NCBI GenBank assembly: GCA_964019135.1
Contig: OZ025264.1
Location: forward strand, 1,178,001-1,242,000
Reading direction: 5' to 3'
Source of the DNA: Arenicola marina
Taxonomy: Eukaryota > Annelida > Polychaeta > Arenicolidae
DNA length: 64,000 bases
Made by a program: the position numbers and the translations under genes. Positions 4,911 through 64,000 of this stretch are shown here, piece by piece; the stretch's first letter is position 1; every line of letters begins with the position of its first letter. Below the pieces are notes generated by a model. That model saw nothing but the letters and a program-made list of their open reading frames with translations, was not told where the DNA came from and did no database searches.

Positions 4911-5092
4911 AAAAAGTAAAAAACTATTATTGTTGTCTTTAGTCAGAATTGGTAGCTAGATTTGCTGAGGACTTCTTTACTTTAGTAAACAGAGAAATTT
5001 TCCACTTGCCCAACAAGCAGTCCGAGGAATTACGGAATCCCTATTTGTAATGTAACTTTACAATATGTCTCCTGTACAACCATAGAAGTTTG

Positions 5093-5195
5093 CAGAGATG
5101 GGATTCAAATCGCAAACCGGCCAGTTGGGTTTGCCCAGCAGAGCACACTCGACAATAGCCGAACACGCTACCGACTGGGCCACGGGGGCGCCCCG
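5093..5195 (-). mobile_element. tRNA-derived SINE fragment (family 2)
   Basis: Read on the minus strand it begins GTGGCCCAGTCGGTAGCGTG (pol III A-box type) and contains GGTTTGCGATTTGAATCCC (degenerate B box) at tRNA-like spacing. It does not fold as an intact tRNA. The flanking 5' GGGGCGCCCC is palindromic. Confidence 0.55.
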
Positions 5196-6449
5196 CAAAT
5201 GTGTCTAGGGTATTTCTTGAATTAAAGAAGTGTTCTAGCCCTTGATCGAGTGACGTGCAATAACAAGCGACATTTACATATCACAGTAATAAATCATTAA
5301 AACCAACTTGCATATTTTGTGAACAAACACAAACATTTATTGTGTGCTACAAGCTGATGAAAAGCAAAAATATCCTTGAGAAAATGTCTACGATATATCT
5401 CACATGACCATGCACTCAGCCATCAACGAGCCGTCAAACCACCTTGGATAGGCTTTAATGTACTCACGAAAATATCAAAAAGAAAACGCCAATCTGACGT
5501 TTATAGAAACCCTACTGTATGTATACAGAAAGAGACAGTGATCTAGATCAGTCTAATTTATCAGTTTACCGATGATTTCTAGCTCTCTTTTTACCCACAA
5601 TGCTGAAGATTTCCCACACTAGAACGTGGCACCCCCTCCCCCCCCCCCCCCCCCCGCCCCCCACCCCCACGCGCTCCTCCCTCTATATTTTGCTTCGTGT
5701 ATTATACGAAGAACTACGCATGATTTTGTTATAAAGAGGAATGGAAATACAATGATGAAAGGTGAATAATTAAATTTGCAAAATGTTGCATTACAACGAA
5801 CACCTATAAGGAAGGAAACGAAGTTTCCACCACGATTATCAATCACCATAGCACCATCGGAAATCTAAATGTGAGAAAAGGACAACCATGCTTATTTAGG
5901 TACTCCAATTGGGCCTCCTTCTATACAAGACCAGTTTGTATGAAAATACGAATATTCATGAACAACCAGCGTCTCTGCGCCACGGCTTAATTACCGCGCG
6001 GTTGCACACCGGTTAGAACGATGAGCGACAGCGAGAGTTGACGAAGGTGCGCTTTGTCCTTGTAAAGTGCGCCGTGAATGAGTACCCTATGAAATGTTAG
6101 AAGAAATAAGTTGAAAAAACACTTGCATCACTTGCAAGGGAATGATCGCAAGAAAGTCCTGTTATATAGTGAGATATACATAATCTTCTTTTTCATTGCT
6201 ATCTATACAAATACCAGACACGAATTGTAGAATAAAAAAACTGATTTCCCCCGCCATGGAGCCCTAGAAGAGCGCATATAGTGGACTAGCATCGAAATAG
6301 CAACCTTAGTTGAATATAGCAACAGTGAATTTTGTAACCAGAGTACCTGATAGCTGAAAGAGCCCGACGATATTGCATCTGACAGCAAGCATGACGGCTT
6401 TGTACGGTTTGAGATCGAAGCATCTAATTAGCCACTGAATTCACATGGT

Positions 6450-6451
<2 letters not shown>
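5196..6451. other. Non-coding stretch with a C homopolymer
   Basis: No gene is recognised. It holds a long C run at about 5639-5656 (G run on the other strand) next to a C-rich patch, and otherwise AT-rich single-copy-looking DNA. Confidence 0.5.

Positions 6452-6481
<30 letters not shown>
6452..6481. repeat. (TA)n microsatellite
   Basis: About 15 consecutive TA/AT steps. Confidence 0.9.
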
Positions 6482-6485
<4 letters not shown>

Positions 6486-7402
6486 TCATCTCTGGTAACG
6501 ATGTGGCAACGTTATGACAACGTTGTGAGAATAACGTTTCGGTAACGTTGTGATGTCTTCACACCGTCATAATGACGAACCCAACCAGAGATCGGCACTA
6601 CCTACACTGTCAACAGTGCCCTTACGTGTACCTAGAATGACGTCACGAGTCGTCGGCCTTCCAGAGGACACATATGACGTCACACTGCTGGCTCCGATGT
6701 GGTCATAACCCAAGTGCTACATGCTAATTTCTAAAGTCTGTTTTAAGCCGTACATGCACTGGTGTCAGTGTCCGCCAAGTGTAATCTCATATCATGTCGA
6801 TAACCAATACTGTTCTCGAGAAACGTGGGATTTTCTTCGACAAACACACTGTTCATTTTGCTTTCTCAGAATTGTCTTCTCGATGCGATCGTTGACACAT
6901 GCACAACCTCGGGAGAAGACAAACAATTGTTGTCTGCACAACTTCGTCTAAGCTACTTGGCGTGTGTGCCAGGAGAGCATCGGTTCAGCGGATCAGGAAT
7001 GTATCGTTTCAATGTCCTGTTTCCATAGCAATAATAGACATAGACGACCAGGGAACGCGATGTTTTTGCCGTTTGTCAACAGAGGTCGCCCCTATGCAGC
7101 ATATATTTCGATTGTTTTTTAACAGTTTTTTTCCACGAGAGGTAAATCGAATCGAGTGTCGCCAAACGTAAACAATCGAGAGCCGTATCATTTTCCTCCA
7201 TACGGCGAGACTGTATATATTTTTCACGCTCGTCACATGGCGCAAATCCAGGCCGCTATAACTGTATTAACGTCCACTTGGGGCCGCCTCTTCACGTGGC
7301 CACGGTTCCATGACTGTTCACATGGGGGCGCCCCGGACACAACGATGCCCTCCGAGGTCCAACTGATCGGGGAATAATACAATAGAATCCAGACTAGGTG
7401 GT
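6482..7402. other. Non-coding stretch
   Basis: Begins with clustered AACGTT-type words (6496-6555) that make several short palindromes. The overlapping ORFs at 6721-7245 show no family features. Nothing else is supported. Confidence 0.4.
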
Positions 7403-7618
7403 TCAAGTGTGGATCGTTCGCTTTCTGAGATCCAGAACGACCCCCTCTGAGTGTTTGAGCATCGCCTCCGGCTCCAGACGCGGTGCTTTGCCGGGCGGCA
7501 GAACGTGGCTGGCCGGCCCGGACTTGCGCTTCCGGACGCTGAGATCCAGCGCCCCGCAGCTGTCGTAGACCAGCCCCGTGTGGGCCGGGAGCGCCGCCAG
7601 GGACAGCGGGGAGGCCAT
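7403..7618 (-). CDS. Unidentified 71-residue ORF with two LDL(S/R)-x-(R/K)KR motifs
   Basis: A GC-rich ORF in otherwise AT-rich flanks, starting at ATG 7618. It contains ALDLSVRKRK near residues 24-33 and VLDLRKR near residues 61-67, separated by a Pro/Leu-rich linker. LDLS next to basic residues resembles short repressor-docking or nuclear-targeting motifs of transcription cofactors, but that is only resemblance. No good splice donor lies before the stop and no good acceptor before the ATG, so it could be a one-exon gene, an unrecognised last exon or a fragment. It lies about 70 bp from the edge of the giant minisatellite. I do not recognise the family. Confidence 0.35.
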   Translation of the reverse strand: MASPLSLAALPAHTGLVYDSCGALDLSVRKRKSGPASHVLPPGKAPRLEPEAMLKHSEGVVLDLRKRTIHT

Positions 7619-7687
7619 TATCTTAATCCCGTCGTTTCCACTCTATTCTGACCGACCTCTAGAAGACCAAAAAGATAGATCCTATCC

Positions 7688-10600
7688 TATCCTTCAGTGA
7701 TACCGCGCATATCCTTCTCCAGTGATACCGCGCATGTCCTTCTCCAGTGATACCGCGCATATCCTTCTCCTCCAGTGATACCGCGCATATCCTTCTCCAG
7801 TGATACCGCGCATATCCTTCTCCAGTGATACCGCGCATATCCTTCTCCAGTGATACCCCGCATATCCTTCTCCTCCAGTGATACCGCGCATATCCTTCTC
7901 CAGTGATACCGCGCATATCCTTCTCCAGTGATACCCCGCATATCCTTCTCCTCCAGTCATACCGCGCATATCCTTCTCCTCCAGTGATACCGCGCATATC
8001 CTTCTCCAGTCATAGAGCGCATATGCTTCCCCGGTCATACCGCGCACATCCTTCTCCTCCAGTGATACCGCGCATATCCTTCTCCTCCAGTGATACCGCG
8101 CATATCCTTCTCCTCCAGTGATACCGCGCATATCCTTCTCCTCCAGTGATACCGCGCATATCCTTCTCCTCCAGTGATACCGCGCATATCCTTCTCCTCC
8201 AGTGATACCGCGCATGTCCTTCTCCAGTGATACCGCGCATATCCTTCTCCTCCAGTGATACCGCGCATATCCTTCTCCTCCAGTGATACCGCGCATATCC
8301 TTCTCCTCCAGTGATACCGCGCATATCCTTCTCCTCCAGTGATACCGCGCATGTCCTTCTCCAGTGATACCGCGCATATCCTTCTCCAGTCATACCGCGC
8401 ATATCCTTCTCCTCCAGTGATACCGCGCAAATCCTTCTCCAGTGATACCGCGCATATCCTTCTCCTCCAGTCATACCGCGCATATCCTTCTCCTCCAGTG
8501 ATACCGCGCATGTCCTTCTCCAGTGATACCGCGCATATCCTTCTCCTCCAGTGATACCGCGCAAATCCTTCTCCAGTGATACCGCGCATATCCTTCTCCA
8601 GTGATACCGCGCATATCCTTCTCCAGTGATACCCCGCATGTCCTTCTCCAGTGATACCCCGCATATCCTTCTCCTCCAGTGATACCGCGCATGTCCTTCT
8701 CCAGTGATACCGCGCATATCCTTCTCCAGTGATACCGCGCATATCCTTCTCCTCCAGTGATACCGCGCATATCCTTCTCCAGTGATACCGCGCATATCCT
8801 TCTCCAGTGATACCCCGCATATCCTTCTCCTCCAGTGATACCGCGCATATCCTTCTCCAGTGATACCGCGCATATCCTTCTCCAGTGATACCCCGCATAT
8901 CCTTCTCCTCCAGTCATACCGCGCATATCCTTCTCCTCCAGTGATACCGCGCATATCCTTCTCCAGTCATAGAGCGCATATGCTTCCCCGGTCATACCGC
9001 GCATATCCTTCTCCTCCAGTGATACCGCGCATATCCTTCTCCTCCAGTGATACCGCGCATATCCTTCTCCTCCAGTGATACCGCGCATATCCTTCTCCTC
9101 CAGTGATACCGCGCATGTCCTTCTCCAGTGATACCGCGCATATCCTTCTCCTCCAGTCATACCGCGCAAATCCTTCTCCAGTGATACCGCGCATATCCTT
9201 CTCCTCCAGTCATACCGCGCATATCCTTCTCCTCCAGTGATACCGCGCATGTCCTTCTCCAGTGATACCGCGCATATCCTTCTCCTCCAGTGATACCGCG
9301 CAAATCCTTCTCCAGTGATACCGCGCATATCCTTCTCCAGTGATACCGCGCATATCCTTCTCCAGTGATACCCCGCATGTCCTTCTCCAGTCATACCGCG
9401 CATATCCTTCTCCAGTGATACCGCGCATATCCTTCTCCTCCAGTGATACCGCGCATATCCTTCTCCAGTGATACCCCGCATGTCCTTCTCCAGTCATACC
9501 GCGCATATCCTTCTCCAGTGATACCGCGCATATCCTTCTCCTCCAGTGATACCCCGCATATCCTTCTCCTCCAGTCATACCGCGCATATCCTTCTCCTCC
9601 AGTGATACCGCGCATATCCTTCTCCTCCAGTGATACCGCGCAAATCCTTCTCCAGTGATACCGCGCATATCCTTCTCCAGTGATACCGCGCATATCCTTC
9701 TCCAGTGATACCCCGCATGTCCTTCTCCAGTGATACCCCGCATATCCTTCTCCTCCAGTGATACCGCGCATATCCTTCTCCTCCAGTGATACCGCGCATA
9801 TCCTTCTCCTCCAGTGATACCGCGCATATCCTTCTCCTCCAGTGATACCCCGCATATCCTTCTCCTCCAGTGATACCGCGCATATCCTTCTCCTCCAGTG
9901 ATACCGCGCATATCCTTCTCCTCCAGTGATACCGCGCATATCCTTCTCCTCCAGTGATACCCCGCATATCCTTCTCCTCCAGTGATACCGCGCATATCCT
10001 TCTCCTCCAGTGATACCGCGCATATCCTTCTCCTCCAGTGATACCGCGCATATCCTTCTCCTCCAGTGATACCCCGCATATCCTTCTCCTCCAGTGATAC
10101 CGCGCATATCCTTCTCCTCCAGTGATACCGCGCATATCCTTCTCCTCCAGTGATACCGCGCATGTCCTTCTCCAGTCATACCGCGCATATCCTTCTCCAG
10201 TCATACCGCGCATATCCTTCTCCTCCAGTGATACCCCGCATATCCTTCTCCTCCAGTGATACCGCGCATATCCTTCTCCTCCAGTGATACCGCGCATATC
10301 CTTCTCCTCCAGTGATACCGCGCATGTCCTTCTCCAGTCATACCGCGCATATCCTTCTCCAGTCATACCGCGCATATCCTTCTCCTCCAGTGATACCCCG
10401 CATATCCTTCTCCTCCAGTGATACCGCGCATATCCTTCTCCTCCAGTGATACCGCGCATATCCTTCTCCTCCAGTCATACCGCGCATATCCTTCTCCTCC
10501 AGTGATACCGCGCATGTCCTTCTCCAGTCATACCGCGCATATCCTTCTCCAGTCATACCGCGCATATCCTTCTCCTCCAGTCATACCCCGCATATCCTTC

Positions 10601-12067
10601 TCCTCCAGTGATACCGCGCATATCCTTCTCCTCCAGTCATACCGCGCATATCCTTCTCCAGTCATACCGCGCATATCCTTCTCCTCCAGTCATACCCCGC
10701 ATATCCTTCTCCTCCAGTGATACCGCGCATATCCTTCTCCTCCAGTGATACCCCGCATATCCTTCTCCTCCAGTGATACCCCGCATATCCTTCTCCTCCA
10801 GTGATACCGCGCATATCCTTCTCCTCCAGTGATACCGCGCATATCCTTCTCCTCCAGTGATACCGCGCATATCCTTCTCCTCCAGTGATACCGCGCATAT
10901 CCTTCTCCTCCAGTGATACCGCGCATATCCTTCTCCTCCAGTGATACCGCGCATATCCTTCTCCTCCAGTGATACCCCGCATATCCTTCTCCTCCAGTGA
11001 TACCGCGCATATCCTTCTCCTCCAGTGATACCGCGCATATCCTTCTCCTCCAGTGATACCGCGCATATCCTTCTCCTCCAGTGATACCCCGCATATCCTT
11101 CTCCTCCAGTGATACCGCGCATATCCTTCTCCTCCAGTGATACCGCGCATATCCTTCTCCTCCAGTGATACCGCGCATGTCCTTCTCCAGTCATACCGCG
11201 CATATCCTTCTCCAGTCATACCGCGCATATCCTTCTCCTCCAGTGATACCCCGCATATCCTTCTCCTCCAGTGATACCGCGCATATCCTTCTCCTCCAGT
11301 GATACCGCGCATATCCTTCTCCTCCAGTGATACCGCGCATGTCCTTCTCCAGTCATACCGCGCATATCCTTCTCCAGTCATACCGCGCATATCCTTCTCC
11401 TCCAGTCATACCCCGCATATCCTTCTCCTCCAGTGATACCGCGCATGTCCTTCTCCTCCAGTGATACCGCGCATGTCCTTCTCCAGTCATACCGCGCATA
11501 TCCTTCTCCAGTCATACCGCGCATATCCTTCTCCAGTGATACCGCGCATATCCTTCTCCAGTCATACCGTGCATATCCTTCTCCAGTCATACCGCGCATA
11601 TCCTTCTCCTCCAGTGATACCGCGCATATCCTTCTCCGGTCATACCGCGCATATCCTTCTCCAGTCATACCGCGCATATCCTTCTCCAGTCATACCGTGC
11701 ATATCCTTCTCCAGTCATACCGCGCATATCCTTCTCCTCCAGTGATACCGCGCATATCCTTCTCCGGTCATACCCCGCATGTCCTTCTCCAGTCATACCG
11801 CGCATATCCTTCTCCAGTCATACCGTGCATATCCTTCTCCAGTCATACCGCGCATATCCTTCTCCTCCAGTGATACCGCGCATATCCTTCTCCAGTCATA
11901 CCGCGCATATCCTTCTCCTCCAGTGATACCGCGCATATCCTTCTCCAGTCATACCGCGCATATCCTTCTCCAGTCATACCGCGCATATCCTTCTCCTCCA
12001 GTGATACCGCGCATATCCTTCTCCGGTCATACCGCGCATATCCTTCTCCAGTCATACCGCGCATATT
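7688..12067. repeat. 4.4 kb minisatellite, 25 and 28 bp units
   Basis: Roughly 165 units of GATACCGCGCATATCCTTCT followed by CCAGT or CCTCCAGT. The two unit lengths differ by one extra CTC. Both are 1 mod 3, so successive units rotate through all three frames and neither strand has stops, which creates many spurious long ORFs. Variants (GTCAT for GTGAT, CCCCGC for CCGCGC, CAAATCC for CATATCC, ATGTCC, CCGTGC) recur in blocks. A rare unit with ATAGAGCGC occurs at 8014 and 8971, 957 bp apart in the same context; the CCGTGC variant recurs every 128 bp at 11566, 11694 and 11822. These are higher-order duplications. The right edge lies 9 bp from the KDZ transposase stop codon. Confidence 0.97.
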
Positions 12068-33179: not shown

Positions 33180-33630
33180 AGTGGGAGCACCCAGTCTTCA
33201 CGCGCGTCCTTGACATTGAATGACGAGCGCCATCTACCGGGAAAAAGAGTTGGCTTTGGAGCTCCGCCTCTTCCAGTATGGATTTTATACAGCAGTAAAG
33301 CTGGCAAAGATGGCTTCGTTGTGTAAGGTATGTCAAATGCTCATACAGGTTTTGGAGAAAGGAAAGTTTGTTTATTCTCAACAGGTTAAAGGTTTGATGT
33401 TTACATTTACATGTTGTCGAAGAATCTTCATGCCAGTGCCGGGCCGCCATCTTGGTTGTTGTCTTTGGAAGACTCCGAGAGTGATCACTTGGCGGCGCCA
33501 CCTGGAACTACGCAGCTTCGGCGAAACCGACCGGACGAAACTGGCCAGTGGCCTATATCACGTAGCCTACACTGTTGGGGCTACGGGGCTTAGTCAGCTA
33601 AAATTATATATATGTATAATGTCTCAATGA
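33180..33630 (+). promoter_or_regulatory. Candidate promoter and first exon of the acyl-CoA dehydrogenase gene
   Basis: A GC-rich patch contains AAAGATGGCTTCGTTGTGTAAG (33305-33326) ending at a strong GTATGT donor, so the ATG at 33310 could begin a six-codon first coding exon (MASLCK), a size like the short first exon of vertebrate ACADM. GCCGCCATCTTG at 33449 is a YY1-type core-promoter word. The exon carrying the rest of the transit peptide was not found, so the link to 37228 is an inference. Confidence 0.3.
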
Positions 33631-33649
33631 ATAATGTTAGAGTCATGAG

Positions 33650-33796
33650 CATGGACGTGTCCAGGGGTGGGGCACAGGGGGCACGTGCCCCCCTTTCAGA
33701 CCCTAAGATATCTGTGCCCCCGCTTTTCCAGGGCCACCTGGCCAGGGATGCGTGGGGGAGGGCACAGGGGGCACGCGCCCCCCTTCCCTTTCAGAC
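33650..33796 (+). repeat. Twice-repeated GGCACAGGGGGCAC block
   Basis: GGCACAGGGGGCACGTGCCC (33671) recurs at about 33761 with one change. GGGGGCACGTGCCCCC is a perfect 16 bp palindrome. Such words occur at the ends of some hAT-type transposons; assignment is weak. Confidence 0.4.
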
Positions 33797-36215
33797 CCTC
33801 CGGCCGAGTCCTACCCGACAACGCTGTCCCACAGCGCCACCTTCCGGCCGAGTCACACCCGACATCGCTGTCCCACAGCGCCACCCTCCGGCCGAGTCGT
33901 ACCCGACACCGCTGTCCCACAGCGCCACCCTCCGGCCAATACATATCCGACACCGCTGTCCCACAGCGCATCCCTTCGGCCGAGTCACACCCGACACCGC
34001 TGTCCCACAGCGCCACCCTCCGGCCGAGTCATACCCGACACCGCTGTCCCACAGCGCCACCCTCCGGCCGAGTCATACCCGACACCGCTGTCCCACAGCG
34101 CCACCCTCCGGCCGAGTCATACCCGACACCGCTGTCCCACAGCGCCTCCCTTCGGCCGAGTCACACCCGACACCGCTGTCCCACAGCGCCACCCTCCCGC
34201 CAAGTCACACCCGACATCGCTGTTCCACAGCGCCACCCTCCGGCCGAGTGACACCCGACACCGCTGTCCCACAGCGCCACCCTCCGGCCGAGTCACACCC
34301 GACACCGCTGTCCCACAGCGGCTCCCTCCGGCCGAGTGACACCCGACACCGCTGTCCCACAGCGCCACCCTCCGGCCGAGTCGTACCCGACACCGCTGTC
34401 CCACAGCGCCACCCTCCGGCCGAGTCATACCCGACACCGCTGTCCCACTGCGCCTCCCTTCGGCCGAGTAACACCCGCCACCGCTGTCCCACAGCGCCAA
34501 CCTCCGGCCGAGTTACACCCGACATCGCTGTCCCACAGCGCCACCCTCCGGCCGAGTCAGACCCGACACCGCTGTCCCACAGCGCCACCTTAGGGCCGAG
34601 TCACACCCGACACCGCTGTCCCACAGCGCCACCTTAGGGCCGAGTCACACCCGACACCGCTGTCCCACAGCGCCACCCTCCAGCCGAGTCGTACCCGACA
34701 CCGCTGTCCCACAGCGCCACCCTCCGGCCGAGTCACACCCGACATCGCTGTCCCACAGCGCCACCCTCCGGCCGAGTCACACCCGACACCGCTGTCCCAC
34801 AGCGCCACCCTCCGGCCGAGTCGTACTCGACACCGCTGTCCCACAGCGCCACCCTCCGGCCGAGTCATACCCGACACCGCTGTCCCACAGCGCCTCTCTT
34901 CGGCCGAGTCACACCCGACACCGCTGTCCCACAGCGCCTCCCTCCGGCCTAGTCACCCCCGACACCGCTGTCCCACAGCGCCACCCTCCGGCCGAGTCAT
35001 ACCCGACACCGCTGTCCCACAGCGCCACGCTCCGGCCGAGTCATACCCGACACCGCTGTCCCACTGCGCCTCCCTTCGGCCGAGTAACACCCGCCACCGC
35101 TGTCCCACAGCGCCAACCTCCGGCCGAGTCACACCCGACATCGCTGTCCCACAGCGCCACCCTCCGGCCGAGTCACACCCGACACCGCTGTCCCACAGCG
35201 CCACCTTAGGGCCGAGTCACACCCGACACCGCTGTCCCACAGCGCCACCCTCCAGCCGAGTCGTACCCGACACCGCTGTCCCACAGCGCCACCCTCCGGC
35301 CGAGTCACACCCGACATCGCTGTCCCACAGCGCCACCCTTCGGCCGAGTCACACCCGACACCGCTGTCCCACAGCGCCACCCTCCGGCCGAGTCGTACCC
35401 GACACCGCTGTCCCACAGCGCCACCCTCCGGCCGAGTCATACCCGACACCGCTGTCCCACAGCGCCACCCTCCGGCCGAGTCACACCCGACACCGCTGTC
35501 CCACAGCGCCACCCTCCCGCCGAGTCACACCCGACATCGCTGTCCCACAGCGCCACCCTCCGGCCGAGTCACACCCGACACCGCTGTCCCACAGCGCCAC
35601 CCTCCGGCTGAGTCACACCCGACACCGCTGTCGCACAGCGCCACCCTCCGGCCGAGTCACACCCGACACCGCTGTCCCACAGCGCCTCCCTTCGGCCGAG
35701 TCACCCCCGACACCGCTGTCCCACAGCGCCACCCTCCGGCCGAGTCACACCCGACACCGCTGTCCCATAGCGCCACCCTCCGGCCGAGTCATACCCGACA
35801 CCGCTGTCCCACAGCGCCACCCTCGAGCCGAGTCACACCCGACACCGCTGTCCCACAGAGCCACCCTCCGGCCGAGTCACACCCGACACCGCTGTCCCAC
35901 AGCGCCACCTTAGGGCCGAGTCACACCCGACACCGCTGTCCCACAGCGCCACCCTCCGGCCGAGTCACGCCCGACACCGCTGTCCCATAGCGCCACCCTC
36001 CGGCCGAGTCACACCCGACACCGCTGTCCCACAGCGCCACCCTCGGGCCGAGTCACACCCGACACCGCTGTCCTACAGCGCCACCCTCCGGCCGAGTCAC
36101 ACCCGACACCGCTGTCCCACAGCGCCACCCTCCGGCTGAGTCATACCCGACACCGCTGTCCCACAGCGCCTCCCTTCGGCCGAGTCATACCTGACACCGC
36201 TGTCCCACAGCGCCA
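33797..36215. repeat. 2.4 kb VNTR of 44 bp units (about 55 copies)
   Basis: Units read GCCGAGTCACACCCGACACC then GCTGTCCCACAGCGCCACCC then TCCG. Each holds CGCTGTCCCACAGCG, a 6 bp stem with a three-base loop. 44 is 2 mod 3, so frames rotate and long ORFs on both strands are artefacts. A rare variant pair (CTGTCCCACTGCG followed by GAGTAACACCCGCCACCGC) occurs at 34440 and 35056, exactly 616 bp or 14 units apart, showing a block duplication. Confidence 0.97.
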
Positions 36216-37227: not shown

Positions 37228-54506
<17,279 letters not shown>

Positions 54507-57951: not shown

Positions 57952-59130
57952 CATAGCCAACCGCAAAGTAAAAAGCTGTAAGTATTGTGTGTATTCACTG
58001 TAACATATGTCTCTGGATAGTAATCATTTGCATACGATTTTACTTATTGTAGATGACACAACGATGAATAACGTGTTCATGATAGATATATAAAAACATA
58101 CACCTCCGATGAACGAACGGTGTACGAGAAAACTAAATGACTTGTAAATAATATAGATGTGATCCGTACTAAACATGTGTCACAATTGACATGATCGTTT
58201 GATAGAACAAATATCGTTCTTTTCTTTTTCAAGTGAAGTAAATCGGGTTTGCAGACTGTTAAGAAAGTAACCGAGTGCGTAATACAATATATATATAATG
58301 AAGTCATATGTTTAGACACTTGGGAAAAGAGTCGTTATATAGTTTCGCTGTATGTTAACAAAATTGAACACAAGAAAACGGTAACAAAAGTTAATGAATG
58401 ATTGAATGCGAATATTTTCTTTGATATGTTTTGGATGAATTAGTTAACATTAATGCTACTGACTAACAACAACAACAACAACCACGGGAACCGACTGACA
58501 GGAGTAAACTATGCGATGAAATGATTTTGCATTTGAACTAAAATCCATAATCTCGCCAACTGTTTGAGTCAAAGGACAAAGTGTGCATGTGAAAACTTGT
58601 TTTATAAATGTAATGATAATATCAAAGATCTCTATACATCTCCAATGCGACATGAGTCACGATTAATGTTTTGAAGCAGTGTTTTTATATTAAATCGAGT
58701 TCACGTAAGCACAGTCAGCAGTTTTGATTATATGGTTATCAATATGTGTTTACATTTGTATATGTATATCGCATCAGTCAGTCGGTAAACAACGTGGACT
58801 GTAAAAAATCACACCAGAATAGGGTGGATGACAAACTTTCACGAAAACGATATGTTTGTAAGTTAACTTCTGAAGCGTGGTGAGCTGTATCAGACAATGC
58901 GGCAGCCCTCGACAGAGCACTGAATGTGATAAACCTGCGAAGAACTTACACCCTCACAAGATTTCTGTTGGTTGACTGCTGCATTCGAGCAGAGTATGCG
59001 TAAATAAATATAGGTGTTACGATATTACTGCGCTACGTTAAGGAGGGGAGGGGGGGGGGGGTGAAGAAATACGATGGATTTCAGATTAAATACCGTTTAT
59101 TAACATCAAGAATATATATAGTTTAAACAT
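57952..59130. other. Non-coding stretch
   Basis: AT-rich, with an (AAC)n run at about 58467, and a G run at about 59041-59062. Nothing coding is supported. Confidence 0.45.
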
Positions 59131-59132
59131 AC

Positions 59133-59165
<33 letters not shown>

Positions 59166-59185
59166 TAAAATGATTATATATATAT
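59131..59185. repeat. (TA)n(CA)n microsatellite
   Basis: Alternating TA steps followed by about eight CA steps and further TA steps. Confidence 0.85.
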
Positions 59186-59194
59186 GGATCCAGT

Positions 59195-59860
59195 GGAGTA
59201 TCCAATTGAATAAGTTGCATTAAAATATCGTCTTCAGGGCACAGTGGAGGATATGGGGACGGCGATAGAGGCGCCGCAGCTCCGGGTGCACCTGGGCGAT
59301 TTCTTATAAAGATCCATTGTGATTCGTCCTCTTCATCCGACGAAATAGTGATTACTTCTTGTCGGCGCGGGACTCGCCTGATCACCATCTCCAGTTGTGT
59401 GTTTTCGCCTCGCCGCGATAAAGTTGGAGATGGCGTTGGCGAGGGTATCCTATTTTCAATGGGGAGTTGGCGACCTCCCTCGTAGGCCAGACGGATGCCT
59501 GCCGCGAACTGGTCTGGAGATGGCGTCGGCGAGGGTATCCTATTTTCAATGGGGAGTTGGCGACCTCCCTCGTAGGCCAGACGGATGCCTGCCGTGAACT
59601 GGTCTGGAGATGGCGTCGGGCGAGGGTATCTTATTTTCAATGGGGAGTTGTCGACCTCTCTCATAGGCGAGACGGATGGCTGCCGTGAACTGGTCTGGCC
59701 GCAGGATGAGGAAGGGCGGCTGGATTTGTGCAATTTGCTGCGGCTGTCCAGTTGACAAACCGACTCCGGGGAATTGTTCGAGTGGACACGGCTGGTGATA
59801 TTGACCGTCTTGGTCATCCATGCCTGTGTATGCACGATTACTGTGGCTAAACATACCGGA
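59195..59860 (-). CDS. Small Pro-rich repeat protein with a SUMO-interaction-like motif; frame interrupted once
   Basis: From an ATG near 59854 the minus strand reads MFSHSNRAYTGMDDQDG, then QPQQIAQIQPPFLILRPDQF. It then holds three copies of a 30-residue repeat (GIRLAYEGGRQLPIENRIPS plus PTPSPDQFTA). The frame changes once within the first repeat. Downstream it has EVITISSDEEDESQW, which closely fits a SUMO-interacting motif (hydrophobic core followed by Ser/Asp/Glu), and ends LDTPLDPYIYNHF. The tandem repeats are 89-90 bp in DNA. I do not recognise the family. Its first part is copied in inverted orientation at 60205-60385. Given the neighbouring PC4-like genes, origin in a mobile or virus-like element is possible but unproven. 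Confidence 0.45.
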
Positions 59861-60390
59861 CCCGGTGAACCAATTGTTGATTGGTGGCACTTCTTGTCAG
59901 CGAACACGAACTATTTACGTTGTGCTATTTAACCAATATGTCGTGAAGTGCCGCACAGAGCTAAAAATCGCACTGACCACAGGTACGATAGTAGTGATTC
60001 TGTTGCCACCACTGTTTTTTACCCTGGGTCAACGCTCTTTCTCGCTCTAGAACTGAAAACCTACAATGCCAGAGCGCCCATTGAGAGGCACTACTATATG
60101 TTTTTTTCGAGCACCGAAATAGGTGACCAGACTGTCTGGCCGGCGTGTTTCTGACAATAGCGTTACACCATCGACAATAAAAATACGGCTCACCTGGACC
60201 GATGATCCACTCGAACAATTGCCCGGAGTCGGTTTGTCAACTGGACAGCCGCAGCAAATTGCACAAATCCAGCCGCCCTTCCTCATCCTGCGGCCAGACC
60301 AGTTCACGGCAGCCATCCGTCTGGCCTATGAGAGAGGTCGACAACTCCCCATTGAAAATAGGATACCTTCGCCCGACGCCATCTCATAAA
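59620..60390. repeat. Inverted repeat, arms about 175 bp, spacer about 400 bp
   Basis: 59620-59790 and 60205-60385 are reverse complements (CCGGAGTCGGTTTGTCAACT, CCGCCCTTCCTCATCCTGCG, CGTCTGGCCTATGAGAGAGG). The copied segment is the start of the Pro-rich repeat protein. Confidence 0.85.
59961..60218 (-). CDS. Small ORF with a BED-like C2HC finger
   Basis: The minus-strand ORF in the spacer of the inverted repeat reads GEPYFYCRWCNAIV then ARQSGHLFRCSKKT. CxxC followed by HxxxC at this spacing resembles the BED-type zinc fingers of hAT transposases and related proteins. The rest (RERALTQGKKQWWQQNHYY) is not recognisable. It may be a fragment of a larger gene. Confidence 0.3.
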   Translation of the reverse strand: MFEWIIGPGEPYFYCRWCNAIVRNTPARQSGHLFRCSKKTYSSASQWALWHCRFSVLERERALTQGKKQWWQQNHYYRTCGQCDF

Positions 60391-61084
60391 CATAAAGAAA
60401 CAACCAATTAACTCCTCTCTCCCGTTTTATATAGGTCCTGAACAAACAGATGACTAAATGTCAATGACGTCACCATTCACTCCATTATGATTTTAAAACT
60501 GCATCGTTGACGAAGAGGGCAGGTGTAACATGGGAGTCACGTGTTCAGAATCGTCAGTGAATAGATGGGGGAGAGAAAGGGGGGCAGGGTGGGCCTATAA
60601 CACAAGCTTCTTATGTTTCCATCAGTACACAATGACGCCTCGTGCCATATACAACAGTGAATTTTACTGCCACCACATAATAACCAGCTGCCACGCCTAG
60701 TTATCTAGGAGGGGAAGGTATAACGAAATGCCCACAGGCGGTTGTTGAAGAGGTTAACCGGTTGACCTTTCTGGCCGACGTATTAATGGCTTGCAGATGA
60801 AAAACTACCTGAGGTGAAGACCATAGAGACGCTTATTATTATCGAAGTAATAGTCTGAACAACGGTCATAACTCTTCTCCCTCGCGACAAGAGGACGCCA
60901 ACCGGGCGCTTGTCTCCACGACTTGTTTGTTCGAGAGTTTCTAGATGCATCCTTATTACATCGGCGACAGTTGAATAATGTTACAACCGAAACTAAAATT
61001 AAGGTGATTATTCCTTCCGATATTTCACAAAGTTCATATCACAGCGACACTCCCAAACTTGTGCGTACACAGACCGTCGGCCAA
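60391..61084. other. Non-coding stretch
   Basis: No family features. The ORF at 60923-61171 runs into the direct repeat and is unlikely. Confidence 0.4.
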
Positions 61085-61265
61085 TACCCCGCCAAAAACC
61101 ACATGACGCTCCGCCTCCTCGCTCACTGGCTCGCTGGCTCGCCCGGACATTTGAAAATCACTAGGTCGTGACGGCCAGCGGGCTCTGTGTTGAGGGGCTT
61201 GGAAAAAAGATAAAAAATCGATATTTGTCACGGTCGAAGCCCCGCCCCCACCGTCCAGCGCGCCC
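61085..61265 (+). repeat. Direct repeat copy 1 flanking the PC4-like genes
   Basis: CGCCAAAAACCACATGACGC, CATTTGAAAATCACTAGGTC, ATCGATATTTGTCACGGTCG and AAGCCCCGCCCCC all recur in the same order at 62637-62820. The GCCCCGCCCCC word is a GC box, so the repeat may contain promoter elements. Confidence 0.85.
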
Positions 61266-61635
61266 ACGGGCTCGACTCACTGCCCTCCCACCGGTGAATT
61301 CAAACGCGCATTTAAAAAAATAACCGAACGAAAATAAATAATTGTCGCTGCAACTCTACACATCAAGACAAAGACCACGAAACATCTGTCGCTCGCAGAC
61401 AAGTCATTAAAGTCACCGCTTATTCACAAAGATAGCATTCTATTTTTTATGAGTTTTAAAACATCCACGGCCCTTTTCTGTGACCTTTAACATCAATCAC
61501 ACAATTCACACACAGTAGTGCATGAACCAATTATTAGAAAGCGTAGTGAAGCGACTCAGTCTTATTATAACGCGGGCTTGAGATGTTGGGATTAAAAAAA
61601 TGATTGATCGTTCATTTACAGCGATTACCCGTGCG

Positions 61636-61642
61636 TATAAAG
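61636..61642 (+). promoter_or_regulatory. TATA box
   Basis: TATAAAG preceded by a GC-rich run, about 170-200 bp upstream of the first PC4-like ORF. Confidence 0.4.
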
Positions 61643-61804
61643 CCCGTTGACCCTACCCCTCTCTGTCTATCTTTAAACAGATGACAAAGCCACGCCGATG
61701 TATGACGTCAGTCGTGATGCTATTTTTACACCTCGCCAAAGCATGTTCAGACACGTCCCAAGTGGGTGGATGACGAGGAGGGGGAGGGGGGCGTTGTGAA
61801 TATA

Positions 61805-62155
61805 ATGTGCGGGCGGTCTCCATCTTTTCACCACAACGACATGACTTCCCACAAGACAACAGCGAGCTTCGCTCCCTCCAATCGGCTACCACTCATCCCG
61901 CTGGCCAAGACAAGAAAATGGGAGAATACGCAGTGTACTTCCGAGCAAACTCACGATATACGCTGTCAAGTGTGCATCGGAGAGGATGGCTATTTAACTG
62001 TTCAGTATTTCAAAGACGTTTTACGCTTTGATATTAGAAAGTGGGTATGTCAAGACAACGGCCGTGATTACCCTACACAAGTGGGTGTCAATCTCATCGC
62101 AACCCGCTGGAAGATGTTGCAGACATTGACAAACACCATAGATCGAGAATTGTAA
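61805..62155 (+). CDS. PC4/Sub1-like single-strand-DNA-binding protein, copy 1
   Basis: An uninterrupted ORF (116 codons from ATG 61805; an internal ATG at 61841 is in better context). After a Ser/Thr/Lys-rich N-terminal half, residues from about 60 read GYLTVQYFKDVLRFDIRKWV, then GVNLIATRWKMLQTL and NTIDREL. This matches the PC4 fold (beta strands, DIR(E/K)W/Y, conserved G-V/I-x-L, then W-x-x-L helix). PC4/Sub1 binds single-stranded and melted DNA and acts in transcription, replication and repair. The family is intact at its key positions. The compact spacing to the next ORF (42 bp, same strand) is unusual for animal genes. Confidence 0.75.
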   Translation: MCGRSPSFHHNDMTSHKTTASFAPSNRLPLIPLAKTRKWENTQCTSEQTHDIRCQVCIGEDGYLTVQYFKDVLRFDIRKWVCQDNGRDYPTQVGVNLIATRWKMLQTLTNTIDREL

Positions 62156-62197
62156 CAGACCACCAATCCACGGAAATATCATCTCGGAAGTTTGGTG

Positions 62198-62470
62198 ATG
62201 GCCGAGGTCCAGCCCCGTGGCCAGTTTCTAGATATTCGAAAATACTGGTTGCCGGATACACAAGATACGCCCGTGCCGACCCGAAAAGGAGTTACTCTCG
62301 ATTTAAAGCAGTGGAATTTACTTAAGTTCCATCTCAACACGATCCGCGATAAGTGTGTTCCGGAACTCACCGAGTTGGTTGATTGTATGTCATCTCACCA
62401 AAGTCAGAAGGGGTACTTCGACTGTGTTGAATGTTGCCCGAAAGGTTTGGATAAGATACATCTATCCTAA
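62198..62470 (+). CDS. PC4/Sub1-like single-strand-DNA-binding protein, copy 2
   Basis: A 90-residue ORF from ATG 62198: MAEVQPRGQFLDIRKYWLP, then VPTRKGVTLDLKQWNLLKFH and a Cys-containing tail (CMSSHQ, DCVECCPKG). GQFLDIRKYW and RKGVTLDLKQW are close to human SUB1 (DIREYW, GRKGISLNPEQW). The N-terminal strand of the fold is short or missing, so it may dimerise with copy 1, or both may be domains of one tandem-PC4 protein expressed by splicing. No TATA lies between the two ORFs. Both lie between the direct repeats at 61085 and 62637. Confidence 0.75.
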   Translation: MAEVQPRGQFLDIRKYWLPDTQDTPVPTRKGVTLDLKQWNLLKFHLNTIRDKCVPELTELVDCMSSHQSQKGYFDCVECCPKGLDKIHLS

Positions 62471-62636
62471 ATGTTAATGTATCCACTAAATTACATTTGA
62501 TGTATTTATGGATGACTAATCCTGAATTATGGTGAAAGTTACACCATATATATATATTGGTGTTTAGTATACGTACGTGTGTCATTTAAAGTTTATAGTG
62601 TGTGTAAATATTGGCCAATGGGAATACAGCTACCAC

Positions 62637-62820
62637 CACTCCGCCAAAAACCTACGACGCTCCGCTGGCTCTGGCTCGCTGGCTCGCCCGAACATTTGAA
62701 AATCACTAGGTCGTGACGGCAAGCGGGTGCTGTGTTGAAAGGCTTGGACAAAAAAAATCGATATTTGTCACGGTCGAAGCCCCGCCCCCTCCGTCCAGCG
62801 CGCCCGCGCGCCTGCCCACC
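62637..62820 (+). repeat. Direct repeat copy 2 flanking the PC4-like genes
   Basis: About 90% identical by eye to 61085-61265, same orientation, 1.55 kb apart. Confidence 0.85.
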
Positions 62821-63380
62821 GCTTGTACCCTTGCTGCGGAGAATACTGTCTATTTTACTTACATTTCAAATGTCGAAATTACTCCATGTCACGAATCTAT
62901 CGAGAGTATTGGTCTCCAAACACCATGTGCAAGACCTCTTTACCCATGGTCTAAAATGTCATTCATAATAATATGATATGAAGGTGTATGCTTTTGTGAT
63001 ACTAAGTTTTTGACCACGATAGATGTAGTGATATAGGAATAAAAAACTTTGCAAAATGGATGATTGTATTTGCGTTAATATGGTTTACTCGATACATATC
63101 CTTTAACATATTTTTTTACAACCAAACAAACATATTACACATCTTATAGGATCTCACGTGGCCTGTTCAACGCAAACATTGATTATATACACGTGTCATT
63201 GACGATTAATCATACTGTAACGCGAGAATATACAGTTTACATGGCGATATCTATAGCGATTAAATGATTTACTGTTTCATCAAAGCAAAATGACTTGTTC
63301 ATCTATTACCTATTCATAATAGTACCTGATCGCAGTTTGAAGACTTCAAACAATGATTAATGACATAGTTAACACCTTAA
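62821..63380. other. Non-coding stretch
   Basis: AT-rich; short ORFs at 62713-62976 overlap the direct repeat and are unlikely. Nothing else is supported. Confidence 0.4.
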
Positions 63381-63439
63381 TTGCCTCTTCCGCCAGCCAT
63401 GTCTTCTTCATTCACTCGTACTATAGCACGAGAACATAG

Positions 63440-63660
63440 ACAAGCAATGATTAATAACCTTGTTGAATATACCTATTTACATACTAATTTATACTATTTA
63501 TACCCCGTACTATCACGCGGAAACAAAGACTTCAAAACAAGTATGAATGACCTTGTTGACAGATTAATTAGCTATTTACATCATAATTTATGCTAATTAT
63601 ACCCCGTACTATAGCACGGAAACAAAGACTTTTGACAAAAATTAATGTCCTCATTAACTC
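63440..63660 (+). repeat. Tandem repeat of about 95 bp, just over two copies
   Basis: GATTAATAACCTTGTTGAAT to TACCCCGTACTATCACGCGG and AACAAAGACTT recurs from about 63543 with about 85% identity, and a third partial copy starts at about 63643. The 71-residue ORF at 63381-63596 spans it and is probably chance. Confidence 0.65.
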
Positions 63661-64000
63661 ATGACCGGCAATTTCAAATCGATATTTCAAAATTTTCGGT
63701 CCCGATGTCTCTGGACTCACAGTCCATACTACTCCAGAGCCTTATCACACTTGGTAGAAACGAGTTTTAATAAGAAGAAAGTCGCGCCTTAACGGTCGTG
63801 ACGTTCAAAGGCAGAGCATTACGAAGCGCGTAGTGTGTTCTTTGTGTTATATTTTGAGGTAAAATATCGCATAAATAACTTGGGGCGTTCCCATAAAACA
63901 ACTTGTGAAACAGTAACAATTGAAATCTTTTACGTCGAGCACTCAATGTTTCCCAACCGAGTTCTTGATAGATAAGCGAGTGACTAGTGTGTTTAATCGC
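63660..64000 (-). mobile_element. LINE reverse-transcriptase C-terminus, runs off the window
   Basis: Minus-strand translation from the window edge: SLIYQELGWETLSARRKRFQ, LLFHKLFYGNAPSYLCDILP, THYALRNALPLN and, after one stop, FLPSVIRLWSSM. This is the typical C-terminal tail of CR1/L2/jockey-type LINE ORF2. The element continues to the right. Confidence 0.75.

Follow-up and report, generated by a model that had tools for sequence, protein, structure and literature searches.

The pair of PC4-like reading frames at positions 61085-62820 very probably belongs to a Polinton/Maverick right end, within a decayed copy that descends from a palindromic satellite of that Polinton. By the window we mean the whole 64,000-nucleotide stretch of Arenicola marina DNA that was analyzed (C19:1178001-1242000); the genome searched comprised 867 Mb, and L-numbers denote the genomic pieces compared. 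The first-pass annotation had considered either a small mobile cassette or the remnant of a virus-like element, and the second description fits, the element being a Polinton/Maverick. Homology to the satellites starts abruptly at 57953 and runs to a terminus at 63733, where a terminal ACTACT motif, recognized by eye, closes the right arm. The copy consists of a loop up to 60205, an internal inverted bit with a deletion, and the right arm from 60389, and its decay is seen in a left arm that is almost absent, a stop in the PC4 gene, and a protease reduced to residues 101-140. The features of the window copy are as follows.

57953-58410, no strand assigned: inner part of the left arm of a palindromic Polinton satellite, all that remains of this arm; 93-94% identical to L009 7538-8052, and to L010 2632-2176 in inverted orientation
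58410-60205, no strand assigned: satellite loop, non-Polinton DNA; 93-95% identical in blocks to the centre of L009/L010
59086-59907, minus strand: SIM-like ORF in the loop; relatives just upstream of gag-like and RT ORFs in L045
59961-60218, minus strand: zinc-ribbon-like partial ORF in the loop; relatives likewise just upstream of the gag-like and RT ORFs in L045
60206-60385, no strand assigned: inverted copy of a loop part; 98% inverted repeat with 59607-59786, 91% identical to L010 292-114 inverted
60389-63733, plus strand: right arm, a short inner-arm piece and then the Polinton right end; 87-97% identical in blocks to L010 5125-8391 and L009 5046-1775, up to 63704
61086-61265, no strand assigned: copy 1 of the direct repeat; lies upstream of PC4
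61805-62470, plus strand: tandem PC4-PC4 gene with an in-frame stop (PF02229)
61991-62122, plus strand: PC4 domain 1 (PF02229, 25.4 bits)
62153-62155, plus strand: in-frame TAA between the domains, from the translation
62225-62326, plus strand: PC4 domain 2 (PF02229, 28.3 bits)
62638-62805, no strand assigned: direct repeat copy 2, at the cut in the protease gene; also in the C8 element L004
62832-62969, plus strand: cysteine protease remnant, residues 101-140 of the 169-aa ORF of L039 (tblastn 76%, E 5.7e-20 and 2.2e-18)
62835-63733, plus strand: right TIR of the Polinton; matches the left-end TIR of L039 in inverted orientation (blocks of 92-97% identity, reaching 63704), last bases by eye

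A deletion of most of the inner right arm adjoins the inverted segment at 60206-60385, and the alignment jumps there to L010 5125. When seven Polinton proteins were used as tblastn queries, the protease remnant was the only match in the window, and PolB and integrase were absent. The protease cut adjoining repeat copy 2 is common to the window copy and to L004.

The 1,736-base stretch gave 44 matches from 40 scored of 320 candidates, in tens of dispersed places at 92-100% identity, a recurrence beyond chance; the full 1,736 bases were matched at four places among the 40 scored candidates, namely three C19 copies and L004. As for the surroundings of the other copies, a check that the first-pass annotation had singled out, many PC4 matches lie inside Polinton ends. 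The C19 copies, at 943, 1077, and 1239 kb, are near identical (99-100%), as if a larger block had been duplicated locally.

The 180-bp direct repeats reported earlier are real, with 86.7% identity over 181 aligned columns between 61086-61265 and 62638-62805 and a GCCCCGCCCCC block in common, but they bound no 1.5-kb unit, the homology extending over 57953-63733. In L040, blocks like the direct repeat are found in the interval that separates PolB from the divergent PC4 gene, and a 212-bp block neighboring the repeat blocks recurs, inverted, beside the capsid-region ORFs of L039. In a genome scan with the repeat (40 scored of 212 candidates), many matches fell at PC4 or PolB loci and a few, such as C4:37353020 and C5:19671931, were tied to no PC4 or PolB among the matches listed; an independent life of the repeat is therefore possible.

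The tandem-PC4 gene and its Polinton family

The two "PC4 genes" are the halves of one reading frame split by a stop. From 61805 the frame runs for 116 codons to a single TAA (62153-62155) and continues in the same frame to 62470, and the 42 bp that had been taken to separate two ORFs are merely the distance to the next start codon. Both domains recognized in the first-pass annotation are genuine PC4 domains, PF02229 lying marginally above its curated cut-off in each ORF (25.4 and 28.3 bits against 25), but they belong to one gene and not to two. An open copy encodes a protein of about 221 aa with PF02229 in two stretches (56.8 bits in all, E 1.5e-15). No stop was present in 133 of the 150 scored matches to the intact form (of 284 candidates), and one stop was present in the other 17; the stop-free matches spanned at least 216 of the 221 residues in 124 of 133 cases and were shorter in nine. 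A TAA is also found in the copy at C19:944090, while the frame is open in that at C19:1077462, which lies on the same contig as the window at a distance of 162 kb.

Similarity between the two domains is weak (36% identity over 39 aligned columns). Human PC4 and domain 2 share a 43-residue alignment (8.3e-5) that includes DIR-YW, P-RKGI-L, and QW-LK, and domain 1 matches 4bg7, a 'putative transcriptional coactivator p15', at 0.03. The PC4 domain is common to the element protein, cellular PC4/SUB1, and phage PC4-like proteins, from which the element protein differs by its two tandem domains, its one uninterrupted frame, and its location in a mobile element. Phage records contained no relative of the protein, and in IMG/VR, with scans that detect close relatives only, neither the PC4 protein nor one PolB ORF had any. 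An AlphaFold model of PC4-PC4 reached a mean pLDDT of 39 from an alignment of 14 near-identical rows, probably because such rows give little diversity.

The reference relative is a 15.5-kb element at C3:21139839-21155311, of which the pieces L039 and L040 were read apart. Its genes are ordered as protease, capsid-region ORFs, integrase with chromodomain, an ATPase-like ORF, PolB in two ORFs, and PC4 on the opposite strand, all enclosed by 1.1-kb TIRs that are 97% identical. The integrase (PF00665, 1.8e-13, 51 bits), the chromodomain (PF00385, 2.7e-7, 30.8 bits), and the larger PolB ORF (PF03175, 1.2e-6, 28.2 bits), a protein-primed, viral-type family B DNA polymerase, scored above cut-off; the smaller, second PolB ORF had no Pfam match. 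For the protease, the PF00770 match (0.0039, 17.3 bits) falls below the cut-off of 21.3, and the best PDB match is the S273R cysteine protease (E 0.015). The ATPase-like ORF, a candidate for the FtsK-like packaging ATPase, gave weak matches, both below cut-off (ATPase_2, 2.6e-4; Pox_A32, 0.12), and no relevant PDB match. The capsid-region ORFs occupy the block expected for double and single jelly-roll capsid proteins and had no Pfam or PHROG match, and one of these genes seems truncated. Family ends read AGTAGT...ACTACT, and no matching target site duplication (TSD) was seen for L039/L040.

Across the genome, 61 PolB matches merged into 55 loci, at least 31 of which have a divergent PC4 gene within 8 kb; two of these 31 show a second PC4 match, differently placed. 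The remaining 24 have no PC4 within 8 kb among the matches listed, and they may be without the gene or carry one that ranks below the matches listed. The tandem-PC4 gene is a single gene of this Polinton family.

A second PolB lineage is represented by L047 (C3:3311500-3319500), in which the PolB protein is 53-58% identical to that of the main family, the PC4 gene is 98% identical, and the right end (5059-8001) shows 94-97% DNA identity, with an 88% block just inside. The right end is therefore exchanged between Polinton lineages. As a shuffled module, the right end with PC4 is found joined both to the second PolB lineage and to non-Polinton satellite DNA. A fossil on C6 retains a PC4 remnant, 67% identical, beside a PolB fragment that is 85% identical to the second lineage.

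When the common PC4 form was compared with this C6 fossil, dN/dS was 0.145 over 97 codons at a dS of about 1.3, a single-pair value that shows signs of long-term constraint on PC4. Single comparisons with closer copies gave dN/dS values of 0.32 to 1.24. For 22 recent copies pN/pS was 0.78, against 0.94 and 1.18 in the other forward frames and 0.75, 0.77, and 1.05 in the reverse-strand frames; recent constraint was undetectable in these copies, since 0.78 lies within the reverse-strand range of 0.75-1.05.

Vertebrate Mavericks, in the parts of the published account considered here, have (AGT)2//(ACT)2 ends and 6-bp duplications, and their size is constrained at about 17 kb (PMC8097293). The annelid elements resemble them in PolB, the rve integrase with chromodomain, a putative adenain-like protease, TIRs, the end motif, 6-bp TSDs, and a size near 16 kb, and differ in the tandem-PC4 gene divergent from PolB; the same parts of that account name no such core gene and describe the accessory ORFs as 'diverse proteins' (PMC8097293). 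In the open-licence literature we found no paper with both "polinton" and "PC4", and the papers with both "maverick" and "PC4" included none on mobile elements by title. The kind of element is known, and the tandem-PC4 gene together with the amplified right-end palindromes is a variant for which that literature yielded no paper among those listed.

Palindromic satellites and their loops

The satellites consist of two Polinton right ends as inverted arms, are mostly 15-16 kb long, and have no PolB; their loops are foreign DNA or an integrase fragment. At least 33 inverted PC4 pairs were found, 26 of them spaced 11.6-13.4 kb and 30 with no PolB in between among the matches listed. In three pairs the arms measured 5.8-6.3 kb and were 99.0-99.5% identical within the element. 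The Polinton right end makes up the outer ~3 kb of an arm, with the TIR, a 3' part of the protease gene, and PC4, and the inner ~3.3 kb had no real match to the Polinton pieces. A genome scan with the inner arm returned 42 matches from 40 scored of 176 candidates, nearly all at 97-100% identity. When seven Polinton proteins were compared by tblastn with eight satellite pieces (L009-L016), the 3' protease part was the sole match (residues 58-169 in six pieces and 148-169 in two); PolB, integrase, and ATPase were not found in these pieces, nor was a capsid gene. Retention of PC4 in the satellites may come only from its position near the element end.

The palindromic elements inserted as units, because 6-bp target duplications stand at their TIR ends: all five elements examined have perfect 6-bp TSDs, the first of these read by eye. 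They comprise four satellites or derivatives (C12 at 1.23 Mb, C3 at 6.60 Mb, C12 at 17.4 Mb, and C185) and a fold-back on C9, with lengths, from their ends, of 15.8, 15.7, 15.0, 10.5, and 16.5 kb. The C9 element (L017, L018) is a plain right-half fold-back that carries PC4 and PolB ORFs (1198 and 1186 aa) in both arms around a small, lopsided loop. Its 1198-aa PolB ORF (L017:5083-8679) also contains C2H2 zinc fingers (PF00096, 1.2e-18, three stretches). A sixth candidate, L019/L020, was rejected as a palindrome and left out of the count, as it showed no matching left arm and no ends by motif.

Two types of loop were seen. In the first, a 115-aa zinc-ribbon-like ORF is accompanied by an ORF with an acidic ITISSDEE stretch, and in L045 relatives of both immediately precede an RT ORF (RVT_1, 2e-12) and a gag-like ORF (zinc knuckle, 1.3e-4). 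The zinc-ribbon protein of the satellite is 72% identical to that of L045 with a dN/dS of 0.095, by which measure the L045 ORF is strongly conserved. The second type holds a Polinton integrase fragment, about residues 48-129, and 10 of 12 such fragments adjoin loop copies. All 40 scored loop copies (of 389 candidates) were 96-100% identical; PC4 lay inverted on both sides within 11 kb in 27, on one side in 10, and on neither in three. The loop as a simple Polinton piece was considered and discarded, since the tblastx comparison of inner arms and zinc-ribbon loop left L039 and L017 without a match and gave just a few short, weak ones in L040 and L018, although the second loop type does hold the integrase fragment.

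By eye, L045:4542-6935 is a Ty3/gypsy-like element, with the zinc-ribbon-like and acidic SIM-like ORFs upstream of gag. In L046 (C7:28437000-28446000), zinc-ribbon loop copies are clustered about 2.3-2.7 kb apart beside a frameshifted PC4 gene, and the satellite loop seems to have been amplified there in tandem.

Satellite origin and the role of the tandem-PC4 protein

PC4 domains bind single-stranded DNA (ssDNA) as dimers, and the tandem protein could therefore be a self-contained unit, with the dimer of this fold built into one chain. Protein priming, the mode of replication presumed for animal Polintons, calls for an ssDNA-binding protein, and we are aware of none that has been named in their case; the displaced strand is coated by DBP in adenovirus and by p5 in phage phi29. 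Given its place beside PolB and the signs of old constraint, PC4-PC4 may be the protein that coats the strand displaced in protein-primed replication, which would make the gene a direct candidate for the Polinton ssDNA-binding protein. The satellites would arise by fold-back of a replicating strand or by inverted-end recombination, either of which would copy one end onto both termini and so produce a molecule with two good origins and with its integrase ends kept. Gene loss suggests that PolB and integrase from complete Polintons are used in trans by the satellites, and their length, near that of a full Polinton (mostly 15-16.5 against 15.5 kb), is in line with packaging. We put forward, tentatively and as one possibility, a two-level system of parasites in which an integrating Polinton virus is accompanied by palindromic satellites, one loop type of which has retrotransposon-derived genes, and these are replicated by the helper, packaged to capsid length, and reintegrated, with the tandem-PC4 protein as the shared ssDNA-binding protein. 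The satellites illustrate that elements of this kind can lose almost all of their genes and transport other DNA without ceasing to spread.

Instead of fold-back, the inverted ends of two Polintons may have undergone recombination or gene conversion (TIR expansion), a plausible origin to which we assign somewhat less than an even chance. It would agree with arms that are 99% identical within an element, as ends may be homogenised, with right ends that are swapped between PolB lineages, and with the existence of two loop types, whereas the small, lopsided loop of the C9 element is as fold-back predicts.

For the protein, the main rival to a replication role is that PC4 is a transcription factor of the element, acting on late or capsid genes or in host takeover, which we regard as possible though rather doubtful. 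The best phage-family match of the protein is phrog_4053 of the 'transcriptional regulator' group (1.5e-8), PC4 stands head to head with PolB with the repeat blocks in between, and the 212-bp block of the PolB-PC4 region recurs inverted beside the capsid-region ORFs. Eukaryotic PC4 is, moreover, described in the bay scallop paper, as far as the passages used here go, as a Pol II coactivator (PMC9223095). A role in transcription sits less well with the satellite pieces, in which PC4 is still present where no PolB, integrase, or ATPase was found.

Sequencing artefacts can create large inverted repeats, and the palindromes might in principle be read or assembly artefacts; this is very improbable, given that 27 separate places have one common loop with inverted PC4 on both sides, that the arms of three elements are 99.0-99.5% and not 100% identical, and that the TSDs vary from place to place. 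Slighter still is the chance that the genes are paralogues of host SUB1 or make up a gene family domesticated by the host, even though the PC4 domain is the host SUB1 fold. The strongest PC4 match in the genome (C8:27989174, 58.5 bits) lies away from the element and is probably a host SUB1 exon, and tblastn of either element PC4 half against this 3.1-kb locus gave no match at E up to 10, in agreement with the earlier opinion that the feature is not a normal SUB1 gene. With this likely exon elsewhere and at least 150 scored matches, many of them inside Polinton ends, the two ORFs were rejected as exons of host SUB1. Least probable of all is that the 180-bp direct repeats, which do flank the PC4 gene in the window, are the borders of a small mobile cassette; as the unit of movement this cassette is refuted, since the whole stretch was matched in the three C19 copies and L004 only (40 candidates scored) and the insertions examined are whole elements of 10.5-16.5 kb with 6-bp duplications at the TIR ends; of the mobility first supposed for the cassette, what stands is the right end as a shuffled module.

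Related systems and neighboring repeats

Ad12 SYREC and other symmetric recombinants of adenovirus have foreign DNA enclosed by long inverted arms, each arm a copy of the same viral end. The satellites share this architecture, but they are resident in the genome in tens of copies and known from sequence alone; no paper on adenovirus symmetric recombinants was found in the open-licence literature. Virophages and other satellite viruses depend on the replication and packaging machinery of a helper, and the palindromic satellites may be similar in helper dependence and in shared machinery, with the difference that the satellite pieces yielded no capsid gene and that helper use is deduced from gene loss only.

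Expansions of PC4 genes have been linked to stress response in bivalves (PMC9223095, PMC5499747). According to the portions of these papers drawn on here, three of five PC4 genes of the bay scallop have two PC4 domains, two of these three being single-exon (PMC9223095), and in the Manila clam the 62 expanded families include PC4, which is named beside transposase and phage integrase (PMC5499747). From these published descriptions only, some bivalve PC4 genes may be Polinton genes.

Other repeats were noticed in the window. A Ty3/gypsy-like retrotransposon at 48260-52253 (plus strand) contains zinc knuckles and RT in a gag-pol ORF of 814 aa, after which come integrase-like ORFs (by eye). Two long minisatellite arrays with 28-bp and 44-bp units occupy 7694-11873 and 33612-36000, limits being approximate, and are open as repetitive ORFs, and a 91-nt unit is repeated about a dozen times at 40268-44388 with the terminal copy inverted. 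Just beyond the Polinton terminus, at 63767-64000 (minus strand), an ORF fragment resembles, by eye, the end of a non-LTR retrotransposon protein.
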